64,000 nucleotides of DNA, taken from assembly GCA_029237825.1 (NCBI GenBank), contig JAQZBQ010000003.1, forward strand, positions 1-64,000. The letters are read 5' to 3'. The notes under the pieces are model-generated. The model saw only the letters and a program-made list of their open reading frames with translations. It was not told the origin of the DNA and did not search any database. Position numbers and translations under genes: made by a program. Of the stretch, positions 59,036 to 62,817 are shown one piece after another. The number at the start of each line of letters is the position of its first letter. Position 1 is the stretch's first letter. The stretch is from Bacteroidota bacterium. Lineage in GTDB: Bacteria > Bacteroidota > Bacteroidia > B-17B0 > Aurantibacillaceae.

Positions 59036-59770
59036 ATGCTAAAAAGATTAAACAAAGCAGAACGGAAGTTTTTAGATGGACCAATGTCCCGTTGGACTGA
59101 GCTTAAATACGCGTTCACCATTTTCTATCAAATGATTATCGGTTTACGAAAATTGCATTTTATTGGTCCTTGCGTTACTGTTTTTGGATCTGCTCGTTTT
59201 AAGGAAGACCATCCCTATTACAAGCTAACAAGAACATTATCAGCGGAAATTGCCAAGCTGGGTTTTGCAATCATGACTGGCGGTGGACCAGGTATCATGG
59301 AAGCTGCAAACCGCGGCGCCAAAGAAGTTGGAGGATTATCGATTGGCTGTAACATTGTTTTGCCAGAAGAACAACATATCAATCCCTATATGGATAAATA
59401 TGTCTTAATAGATTATTTTTTCGTTCGTAAAGTTCTGCTCCGGAAATATTCATTTGCATTTATTGTAATGCCCGGTGGTTTTGGCACCATGGATGAATTT
59501 TTTGAAGCACTTACGCTGGTACAAACCAAGAAGACAGAAAAATTTCCAATTGTTGTCATGGGCGTGGATTACCATAAAGACCTGCTTGAACATATTCAGC
59601 GAATGATTATGGAACAAACTATCAACGCAGATGATCTTCAGTTAATTCTATTTACGGATTCAGTGGATGCTGCGATTGAACATCTCAAAAAATTCTCTAT
59701 TGATGCTTTTAATTTGAAATTAAGGGAAGCTAAAAAAAGATGGTGGATTTTTGGTGAATTCGACTATTAA
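59036..59770 (+). CDS. LOG-family Rossmann protein (cytokinin riboside phosphoribohydrolase-like)
   Basis: The 244 residues match the TIGR00730/LOG family: GSARF, MTGGGPGIMEAAN, and the PGGFGTMDEFFEAL motif that holds the catalytic residues. Bacterial LOG proteins hydrolyse AMP or related nucleotides. Its 3' end meets the terminator of the first TPP-like RNA on the other strand. It has its own promoter. Confidence 0.9.
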   Translation: MLKRLNKAERKFLDGPMSRWTELKYAFTIFYQMIIGLRKLHFIGPCVTVFGSARFKEDHPYYKLTRTLSAEIAKLGFAIMTGGGPGIMEAANRGAKEVGGLSIGCNIVLPEEQHINPYMDKYVLIDYFFVRKVLLRKYSFAFIVMPGGFGTMDEFFEALTLVQTKKTEKFPIVVMGVDYHKDLLEHIQRMIMEQTINADDLQLILFTDSVDAAIEHLKKFSIDAFNLKLREAKKRWWIFGEFDY

Positions 59771-59780
59771 TTTTAATAGT

Positions 59781-59814
59781 AAAAAAATACCCCCCCATAT
59801 TGCTATGAGAGGGT
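59781..59814 (-). terminator. Terminator of TPP-like unit 1
   Basis: On the minus strand ACCCTCTCATA and TATGGGGGGGT pair (with wobbles) over GCAA and are followed, after one A, by seven T. On the plus strand it also follows the LOG gene. Confidence 0.85.
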
Positions 59815-59817
59815 TAT

Positions 59818-59905
59818 ATTTACTTTTCTTTCGCCGGTATTACCCGGATCAAGTTATAAGGGTTTATTTCTCAGATTTCTCGTTCAAAACCTCCCCTAAA
59901 TAAAT
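59818..59905 (-). ncRNA. TPP riboswitch (THI element), unit 1
   Basis: Read on the minus strand the element has the TPP-aptamer core: an AT-rich P1 (ATTTATTT with AAGTAAAT), AGGGGA at the P2 start, CTGAGA, ACCCTT, AACTTGATCCGGGTAATA and CCGGCGAAAG, in the right order and spacing. A -7 box (TACCTTTG, 59922-59915) lies just upstream. It is followed by a strong terminator but by no gene on that strand: the next bases downstream belong to the convergent LOG gene. It is thus a gene-less TPP-binding RNA unless a distant or lost partner exists. Confidence 0.85.
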
Positions 59906-59914
59906 AATATAATT

Positions 59915-59922
59915 CAAAGGTA
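59915..59922 (-). promoter_or_regulatory. -7 box of TPP-like unit 1
   Basis: TACCTTTG on the minus strand is an exact TAnnTTTG match, about 10-17 bases before the riboswitch P1. The same arrangement, one base off, precedes unit 2. Confidence 0.6.
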
Positions 59923-59999
59923 ACTCCTAAGTGAAAGAAAGAAACTTATTTTCGGTGAGCAGTGTTTTTTAATAGCTCATTCTACTCTTCATTTGGGAT

Positions 60000-60033
60000 A
60001 AAAAAATACCCCCTCATATTTCTATGAGAGGGT
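60000..60033 (-). terminator. Terminator of TPP-like unit 2
   Basis: ACCCTCTCATA and TATGAGGGGGT pair over a GAAA loop and are followed, after one A, by seven T on the minus strand. It is a close copy of the unit 1 terminator. Confidence 0.88.
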
Positions 60034-60035
60034 TA

Positions 60036-60124
60036 CACTTATTTTTCTCTACCCGGTATAGTCCCGGTTTGAGCGGAGAGCCGGTTTCAGATACTAAATC
60101 ATAAAACTTTGCCCTCAATAAATT
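60036..60124 (-). ncRNA. Degenerate TPP-like RNA, unit 2
   Basis: This is a diverged copy of unit 1. It keeps an AT-rich P1 (AATTTATT with AATAAGTG), a GAGGGC start, CTGAAA in place of CTGAGA, ACCGGGACTATACCGGG in place of the TGATCCGGGTAATACCGG block, and the same terminator. The conserved ACCCTT and UGAUC segments are lost, so TPP binding is doubtful. A box TACCTTTA (60140-60133), one base off the consensus, precedes it. No gene follows on the minus strand other than unit 1. Confidence 0.6.
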
Positions 60125-60223
60125 ATATAGTATAAAGGTAATCACCCAAAAGGCTATTGATTAAAATTTTAGGTAAACCAACTTATTGCATAGCCGGAAG
60201 TTCTGGAATTATTGGTATTATTA

Positions 60224-61243
60224 TTAAAAATCCCTTTCTTCAATCGAACCATCCATGTATTTTGCGAAACGTTGAAATTTTTCTGAGTGTACTTGCTCGT
60301 ATTCCGGCCATGGCCAACCTCCAAATTGCGATTGATGATATTCTTCAAACGCTTCGTTAATCTCAGCTTTACTATTCATTACAAACGGACCATATTGTAC
60401 CACAGGTTCGTTAATGGGCCGTCCCTGTAAAATTAAAACCCTCGCATCTTTAGCAATTGCACTAATCAGTATTTCCGCTTCGGGATTAACTTCAACTGCA
60501 TGATAACTATTTATCCGCGTACCGTTAATTAAAATTTCTGTACCTGAATAAAAGTAAATCGTACGGTTAATACCAGCAGCTGCCTTAGGTATTGTAAAGC
60601 TACTGTCTGCATCCATTTTTAAATTCCACACGCCAACTTCGTTCTGAGGATCAGATGCCCAGGAATCTGGCGGAGGTGTTGGAGGGTTAATTCCAAACAA
60701 CGATCCTGCAATTATTTCCACATGGGTATTTTTCCCATTATTATCATTATGAACATACACTGGAATTGATTCTTTCCAAAACATTTTAAAATGTGGTTCG
60801 ACCTGTTTACTTTTTCGCGGAAGGTTCAACCAAATTTGAAAAAGTTCGAGCGAATTTGTTCTATCGGCATGGATCAATGGAAACATCTCTGAATGCAAAA
60901 CACCTTTTCCTGCGGTCATCCATTGAACATCACCATCTCCATACCTACCAGCTGCTCCAAGAGAATCCGCATGATCAACAATACCTTTTCTTACAATGGT
61001 AATAGTTTCAAATCCTTTATGCGGATGCCCCGGGAAACCCGGCACCGATTTGCCATGATACATTCGGAATCCATCTTTCGTAATAAAATCATCACCAGGG
61101 CTTCGGCCGGTCAGGTATTTCTTATCAAGACCCATGTTAGCGTTTCCGGGAGGAAAAGTATCTTCATGATGAACGCAAAATAAAAAGGGATCTTGCGTTT
61201 CCCATTGAAAGCCTAACGGTTTAATATTGAGGATTGCGTTCAT
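60224..61243 (-). CDS. Pirin family protein
   Basis: The 339 residues form a bicupin. N-terminal metal site residues are visible in HPHKGFETITIV and in GDVQWMTAGKGVLHSE, both classic pirin signatures. Pirins have redox or quercetinase-like activity; the exact substrate is unknown. A -7 box (CAAAAATA on plus, i.e. TATTTTTG on minus, 61270-61263) precedes the ATG. Its 3' end lies just upstream of the TPP-like units. Confidence 0.9.
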   Translation of the reverse strand: MNAILNIKPLGFQWETQDPFLFCVHHEDTFPPGNANMGLDKKYLTGRSPGDDFITKDGFRMYHGKSVPGFPGHPHKGFETITIVRKGIVDHADSLGAAGRYGDGDVQWMTAGKGVLHSEMFPLIHADRTNSLELFQIWLNLPRKSKQVEPHFKMFWKESIPVYVHNDNNGKNTHVEIIAGSLFGINPPTPPPDSWASDPQNEVGVWNLKMDADSSFTIPKAAAGINRTIYFYSGTEILINGTRINSYHAVEVNPEAEILISAIAKDARVLILQGRPINEPVVQYGPFVMNSKAEINEAFEEYHQSQFGGWPWPEYEQVHSEKFQRFAKYMDGSIEERDF

Positions 61244-62499: not shown

Positions 62500-62817
62500 T
62501 CATTTCCTACACGCATCGGCACATTTTCTGCACACCTCTGCGCATTTCTGACAATGGCTTACTTCATGTTTTCCGCATTCTTCTGCACATTTCATACAAA
62601 TTTCAGCGCACTCATTCAGTAAATGAATAGCGTGGTCTGAACGTCGCGCCACAAAAGCAGCCGTTACTGAGCAAAACTGTGCGCAATCCATATCCAGCTT
62701 AATGCATTCCGCCATCATGTTCACATCCGGTTCATTTAAACATGCCGTCAGGCACCGTTGACACTCCGCAGAACACTCTGCAAGCGTTTCAAGTAATATC
62801 GTATTTTGTTTTTCCAT
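62500..62817 (-). CDS. Four-helix-bundle copper-binding protein (DUF326/Csp-like)
   Basis: The 105 residues carry repeated Cys motifs along four helices: CSAECQRCLTAC, CIKLDMDCAQFC, CAEICMKCAEEC and CQKCAEVCRKCADAC. This pattern matches the bacterial four-helix copper-storage proteins that hold many Cu(I) ions in a Cys-lined core. It lies 19 bases after the 62837 gene and upstream of the 62110 gene on the minus strand, in a likely stress operon. Confidence 0.88.
   Translation of the reverse strand: MEKQNTILLETLAECSAECQRCLTACLNEPDVNMMAECIKLDMDCAQFCSVTAAFVARRSDHAIHLLNECAEICMKCAEECGKHEVSHCQKCAEVCRKCADACRK

Follow-up and report, generated by a model that had tools for sequence, protein, structure and literature searches.

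The TPP riboswitch is a textbook cis switch, and the locus studied here raises the question of what two such elements do where no gene follows them. The locus lies in the window, by which we mean the whole analyzed stretch of 64,000 nucleotides from a Bacteroidota contig (JAQZBQ010000003.1). A first-pass annotation of the sequence had described two tandem, terminated TPP-riboswitch units with no gene downstream, and this arrangement was confirmed. The pair is on the minus strand, inside the intergenic stretch between a pirin gene and a LOG-type gene (window sequence and Pfam), and downstream on that strand there is only the convergent LOG gene. The parts of the locus are as follows.

59036 to 59770, plus strand: LOG-type gene (PF03641), convergent, 3' neighbor of unit 1
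60224 to 61243, minus strand: pirin gene (PF02678), upstream neighbor, oriented like the units
59915 to 59922, minus strand: unit 1 promoter box of the -7 type, TACCTTTG (from sequence; box type common to 6/6 units of the window, G008 and G078)
59809 to 59907, minus strand: unit 1 TPP aptamer, P1 to P5, with intact CTGAGA (J3/2) and CG (J4/5) (RF00059)
59781 to 59814, minus strand: unit 1 terminator, an 11-bp hairpin (59814-59789) with a GCAA loop and a T-run (59787-59781) (folding)
60133 to 60140, minus strand: unit 2 promoter box of the -7 type, TACCTTTA (from sequence)
60032 to 60126, minus strand: unit 2 TPP-like three-way junction without TPP contact residues (R2 model and folding)
60000 to 60033, minus strand: unit 2 terminator, an 11-bp hairpin (60033-60008) with a GAAA loop and a T-run (folding)

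The two units are built alike. A TACCTTTR box, which in unit 1 we take to be the Bacteroidota -7-type TAnnTTTG promoter motif, stands 25 nt before P2 in each, and each closes with a hairpin of 11 bp, capped by a GNRA loop, and a T-run (z -4.37 for unit 1 and -3.95 for unit 2; 0/200 shuffles folded as well in either case). Judged from these positions, each unit would yield an RNA of about 125 nt from box to terminator. No ORF with an ATG start and a length of 45 aa was found on the same strand within 100 nt after the hairpin of either unit, and the first ORF past unit 1, with 47 aa, lies 195 nt on and antisense within LOG. The pair does not look like two aptamers in one leader serving one gene, as by sequence there is a box and a terminator per unit and no gene. 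The LOG stop codon is situated about 10 nt beyond the T-run of unit 1; the unit 1 terminator hairpin (window 59771-59814) sits just past this stop and could conceivably be a two-way terminator. Elsewhere in the window (62500-62817) a 105-aa protein is encoded that is rich in Cys and contains DUF326 repeats (PF03860), which we assume to resemble copper-storage proteins.

Searching the whole window with cmscan, we found that RF00059 matches unit 1 end to end (59907-59809, minus strand) and scores 66.8 bits where the gathering cut-off is 54.3 (E 6e-11). The covariance-model check proposed in the first-pass annotation therefore came out in favor of unit 1, and its description as a conserved TPP aptamer with a box and a strong terminator (0/200 shuffles) holds. 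Both CTGAGA and the J4/5 CG are present, the stretches that we take to contact HMP and pyrophosphate. As these known TPP-binding sequence features are in place, unit 1 should be TPP-competent.

In the rest of the 3.55-Mb genome a single other RF00059 match was found, 30 nt before thiS (PF02597), which is followed by thiC (PF01964). The window pair is additional to this normal TPP control of thiS-thiC. Ordinary TPP leaders read in the genus precede either thiS-thiC or a receptor of about 810 aa, TonB-dependent by Pfam in the one tested. Genus leaders in front of the TonB-type receptor (L040-L044) match over 131-191 nt, below the Rfam cut-off and with long insertions. A DNA search of the window's own genome for further copies of the units gave a best other match with E 0.17.

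Unit 2 is homologous to unit 1, with 107 of 150 aligned columns identical, a box of the same TACCTTTR form and an equally long hairpin, as expected from the earlier description of a diverged copy with a similar box and terminator. It scores 130.7 bits against model R1, which was built from five units of which unit 2 is itself one, and 51.5 bits against model R2, built from 19 units that also include it. A 601-base search returned no RF00059 match in unit 2 at E<=10, so we do not class it as a TPP aptamer; matches of the unit pair to other Rfam families were all below the cut-off. The suggestion that unit 2 has changed or lost its ligand is supported, and the three-way fold is retained besides. 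From the flanks, its counterpart is unit a of the congener G008, where CTAAGA replaces CTGAGA and TA replaces the J4/5 CG. Between these two the promoter-P1 part agrees at 28/30 and the P1-terminator part at 47/50, whereas the core agrees at 39/77. Folding of the unit 2 core yields a three-way junction (Y-shape) on P1 at -42.1 kcal/mol. Out of 3000 dinucleotide shuffles of this core, 470 formed the junction, 82 reached an energy as low and 14 did both; the equivalent test on the unit 1 core gave 900, 302 and 83. For one sequence and one test, this retention of the junction fold is suggestive of a unit that is not simply decaying. What unit 2 lost are the TPP contacts; promoter box, P1, terminator and Y-shape were kept.

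Conservation of the locus was followed through 20 genomes of the genus. In G008 three tandem units lie between pirin and LOG, each equipped with a promoter box and a terminator of its own, which places gene-less units at the same locus in a related genome, the sort of recurrence that the first-pass annotation had proposed to look for. The G008 order is MbnP and di-haem cytochrome c peroxidase genes, then the units, then a YHYH gene; we took the G008 record to be JAJNBG010000004.1 from the spacing of the matches. Units at the LOG-pirin locus are found in 2/20 genus genomes only, G008 and the window's own genome (G000). In 7/20 a LOG ortholog was found with 70% identity or more, and the stretch downstream of LOG was read in four of the other five (all except G017). 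Pirin is about 400 nt from LOG in G003 and G013, with one small gene and no unit between them, LOG adjoins YHYH without units in G002, and a different gene occupies the place in G005. Model R1 found no unit at the five other LOG loci at E<=1. As far as seen, the units were thus either gained in the G000/G008 line or kept only there. No thi gene was seen at the LOG site of the congeners read; a thi gene directly downstream in relatives was what the first-pass annotation had named as evidence against its reading.

Unit 1 and unit c of G008 agree in 137/145 columns and their aptamers in 98/99, compared with 82/92 when the thi aptamers of the window's genome and G008 are aligned. LOG and pirin DNA are 75.8% and 70.7% alike between these genomes, their third codon positions 45.9% (LOG) and 41.2% (pirin), and the spacers between units reach 38-45% alignment identity. 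In G008 unit b the terminator stem is preserved via compensatory changes. The promoter-P1 part is less alike between unit 1 and G008 unit c (26/31 only), and the near-identity of the pair could stem from transfer or gene conversion, a possibility that counts against a role in trans.

To cover a wider range, R1 and R2 were searched against 87 genomes of the family (the order gives the identical 87), 395 genomes sampled from the class, two more families with 6 and 24 genomes, and 395 genomes sampled from the phylum. In the phylum sample (E<=1e-11) the window's own genome alone was matched, indicating that the unit group is rare. Overall, we collected 20 units that are terminated and have neither a thi nor a TonB gene, from 15 genomes and one named record. 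They were selected by eye as model or pattern matches with a terminator hairpin and without such a gene. Two come from G000, three from G008, two from G091 and one each from G078, G070, G043, G392, G393, G302, G475, G027, G024, G030, G034, G021 and the named record L141. Units thus occur in at least 10/87 family and at least 7/395 class genomes, counts that are lower bounds because 6/45 family-search places, G375 and most of the 71/101 class places that carried no locus were unread; five more family-search places, scanned for CTGAGA only, showed no unit. As 19 of the 20 units were built into R2 and five into R1, their scores against these models are not independent.

Weak R1 and R2 matches that looked like ordinary leaders of thiC or TonB genes, or that covered just the terminator, were dropped. 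Also left out of the 20 were L140, whose unit runs off the stored stretch, L142, L145 and L147, pattern matches that read as ordinary or partial leaders, and two canonical TPP aptamers followed by a terminator and ambiguous in their relation to a gene, L098 (G104, 54.5 bits) and L203 (G447, 64 bits). In L203 (1496-1590, minus strand) the terminator-like hairpin is followed by a gene of the Na+/H+-exchanger family (PF00999), possibly making it another unit with an unusual gene.

RF00059 matches 11/20 units above its cut-off (window unit 1, G008 units b and c, G078, G302, G475, G091 unit a, G070, G021, L141 and G392) and G393, G043 and G008 unit a below it, and gave no match at E<=0.1 in G091 unit b, G027, G024, G030 and G034. 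One or both contact stretches are missing, by eye in alignment A4, from these last five as well as from unit 2 and G008 unit a. Using this MAFFT alignment with the structure drawn on the unit 1 row, we measured covariation of the three-way junction over 19 units (without G475): 86.2% of cells pair, and in 14 of 23 pairs both sides change. None of 500 shuffles reached any of the five covariation measures, and every slide of the partner columns was worse. P1 strands of 19 units pair with their own partner at -6.28 kcal/mol versus -2.44 kcal/mol with swapped partners (0/5000 permutations), and this unit-specific pairing extends to G024, G030 and G034, whose cores have lost TPP residues.

Upstream of the units we found two kinds of promoter element. 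TAnnTTTR is positioned at -24/-25 from P2 in 6/6 units of the group formed by G000, G008 and G078. In 12 of the other 14 units TGGYAY occurs at -39 to -45 together with a T at the -12 position; G393 and L141 have no TGGYAY, and G392 has an extra TAnnTTTR match at -29. The TGGYAY pattern was chosen after the sequences had been seen, and in shuffled upstreams it appeared in a mean of 1.5/20 (maximum 6), or 0.5 (maximum 3) with the T. It is absent from 6/6 ordinary thi leaders. Promoters of the sigma-54 type have the consensus TGGCAC-N5-7-TTGCT, as given in PMC12316311. A -24/-12 test (TGGCAC-N5-TTGC) on the 12 non-window units recovered TGGYAY and the T at -12, and since the GC of the -12 element is not kept we call the element sigma-54-like only. 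RpoN is encoded in 16/16 genomes tested, including G001 and G012, which are without known units, and this supports the sigma-54 assignment weakly. With standard spacing, transcription from either promoter type would begin at the 5' edge of P1; the promoter types differ between groups, and the inferred start site is unchanged. On the minus strand of L128 (G030, around 1420-1450) the gene that follows the unit, ferritin-like and of the Dps type (PF00210), has its own TGGCATAAAA upstream, like that before the unit, hinting that the G030 unit and this gene share a regulon.

A riboswitch that works by switching its terminator was considered and is disfavored. Over the 20 units, and in a test without a positive control, the terminator arm pairs less with its own aptamer (0.19) than swapped arms do (0.26), and 4866/5000 permutations equaled or exceeded the cis value. 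Pairing is 0.04 and 0.05 in the window units, 0.04-0.07 across the five units of G000 and G008, and at most 0.01 in four others. Five of the 20 have sizeable values (G021 0.69, G070 0.59, G043 0.44, G091 unit b 0.42, L141 0.36), and single units may differ in this respect. Because their arms pair so little with the aptamers, the terminators of the window pair look constitutive, with no conserved antiterminator over the set; this fits a released RNA and speaks against attenuation.

In 9/20 units an ORF with an ATG start and no fewer than 45 aa begins on the same strand 8-93 nt past the hairpin, and the other 11, including the window pair, have none within 100 nt. These ORFs, of which some are small or stress-type, encode OsmC (PF02566) in G091, DUF6799 in G078, a 76-aa Pro-rich protein in both G302 and G475, a hydrophobic 122-aa protein without Pfam match in G027, and proteins of 147, 54, 53 and 134 aa in G024, G034, G393 and G021. 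The YHYH gene of G008 starts 127 nt on, and the stretch upstream of it is common to G002, where no unit was found (39/65 columns; 2/1000 shuffles as high). For units with a following gene, read-through together with a released RNA is possible. Close to units L095, L207 and L077 (after ~7590), in different genera, a small protein rich in Pro (EKDIPAKPDHNPDPT... / PDKETPAKPDPNPDPT...) turns up repeatedly.

Homology, structure, conservation, the absence of a downstream gene and terminator strength were established computationally. From these we arrive at a reading to which we give about an even chance: the units are self-contained RNAs of about 125 nt that act in trans, with TPP as the gate of unit 1 and with a ligand-blind unit 2. 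Each unit would be a full transcription unit, in which a housekeeping-type box, an RNA that begins with P1 and folds into the TPP-type three-way junction, and a constitutive intrinsic terminator lead to the release of an RNA of about 125 nt. The unit 1 RNA would occur both free and bound to TPP, while that of unit 2 would take a similar overall shape and not bind TPP in the known way. Once released, the RNA would bind an mRNA or protein target in trans, with TPP gating unit 1. A trans role appears most likely because a gene to be switched is missing and an antiterminator is not conserved, and it is supported by the separate cis TPP leader before thiS-thiC in the same genome. The three boxed and terminated units of G008 at the locus, together with conservation far above that of the flanks, favor units that stand alone. 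The trans role is weakened by the presence of units at this locus in 2/20 genus genomes and by the nine units elsewhere that precede an ORF. The first-pass annotation had offered stand-alone TPP-responsive small RNAs as one interpretation; the G008 units and the conservation substantiate "stand-alone", and "TPP-responsive" and "small RNA" are what we infer.

Extending the trans reading beyond this locus is a tentative step, and we lean against it: Bacteroidota would possess a family of free-standing TPP-sensing RNAs with dedicated promoters, in which TPP gates an RNA acting in trans and ligand-blind siblings are retained. Just as tentatively, the promoters of such a family would be housekeeping-type in the window group and sigma-54-like elsewhere, sometimes near stress-type genes. 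The ORFs 8-93 nt past the hairpin leave a cis role open at other loci, and the units might in general be cis leaders made of a promoter, a TPP-like aptamer and a leaky terminator, with read-through into a small or stress-type gene; the window copies would then have lost their gene or never had one. The gap to these nine ORFs mostly offers scant space for a second promoter, and the arm-aptamer pairing of 0.36-0.69 in 5/20 units points the same way. However, the downstream genes vary by locus except in the relatives G302 and G475, 11/20 units have no ORF within 100 nt, an antiterminator is not conserved over the set, and the stretch upstream of the G008 YHYH gene exists in G002 without a unit. 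We therefore judge general cis leaders to be unlikely.

Tandem copies, conservation of the whole unit and a scattered distribution (at least 10/87 family and 7/395 class genomes) would also suit a dispersed intergenic repeat or mobile element that carries a TPP aptamer by chance and is copied as a unit, and the two G008 spacers share a stretch that is 67.6% alike. Yet no genome yielded more than three copies, viral contigs (exact pattern) and plasmids and phages (blastn with unit 1) gave no match, base pairs covary and the start site is constant despite differing promoter types, which makes this origin quite improbable. The first-pass annotation had alternatively suggested relics left by the loss of a thi operon, in line with the absent downstream gene and the lost ligand residues of unit 2. 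This idea fared badly and is disfavored as very improbable: no thi gene was seen in the congeners read, thiS-thiC is present elsewhere with its own leader, the unit 1 aptamer is near-perfectly conserved, and unit 2 retains box, P1 and terminator. Hardly credible, finally, is a riboswitch-controlled antisense RNA to LOG, comparable to vitamin B12 and AspocR in Listeria. LOG is convergent and its stop codon closely follows the T-run of unit 1, but the terminator is strong, the arms in the window units pair little with the aptamer, and in G008 the YHYH gene, on the strand of the units, separates them from LOG.

We then compared the trans reading of the units with known systems. Unit 1 has its fold, CTGAGA and the J4/5 CG in common with TPP riboswitches of RF00059, including the thiS-thiC and TonB-receptor leaders of the genus. 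Unlike these, the window units have no downstream gene and carry their own terminator right after P1. P4 differs as well, reading ACTTGA/GAAAGRAAA in most of the 20 units and ACCTGA/GAAGGGAA in the TPP riboswitch.

According to PMC8079631, SreA and SreB are SAM riboswitch RNAs of Listeria that act in trans on prfA. SreA and the units are alike in being terminated riboswitch RNAs for which action in trans is proposed; SreA, however, has a downstream operon under its cis control as well and needs SAM to terminate, whereas the window units have nothing downstream and terminate seemingly constitutively. Rli55, described in the same paper, resembles the units in that a riboswitch (for B12) is tied to a non-coding RNA and not to a gene. 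There the riboswitch decides whether the effector part of the RNA is made, while no effector part follows the aptamer in the units. Barrick and Breaker 2007 (PMC2258182) mention, as unexplained, functional-looking aptamers away from related genes, for which antisense RNAs acting in trans or recent orphaning were suggested; the conservation of the units argues against recent orphaning. The paper also describes rare tandem TPP aptamers, which share one UTR, in contrast to the box and terminator of each window unit.

In a limited search of open-licence PMC papers, we found no description of stand-alone TPP RNAs of this type. At the window locus and in G008 the aptamer makes up the whole predicted transcript, no gene follows, conservation is strong, and predicted ligand-competent and ligand-blind versions are adjacent. 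The system thereby poses the questions whether a metabolite gates a small RNA without a downstream gene, and whether the fold is retained for a reason other than the ligand. The TPP aptamer family and, from PMC8079631, the action in trans of a terminated riboswitch RNA (SreA) are known. What appears to set this locus apart is that a TPP unit is conserved without a gene, has its own box and a seemingly constitutive terminator, and lies beside a putatively ligand-blind sibling.
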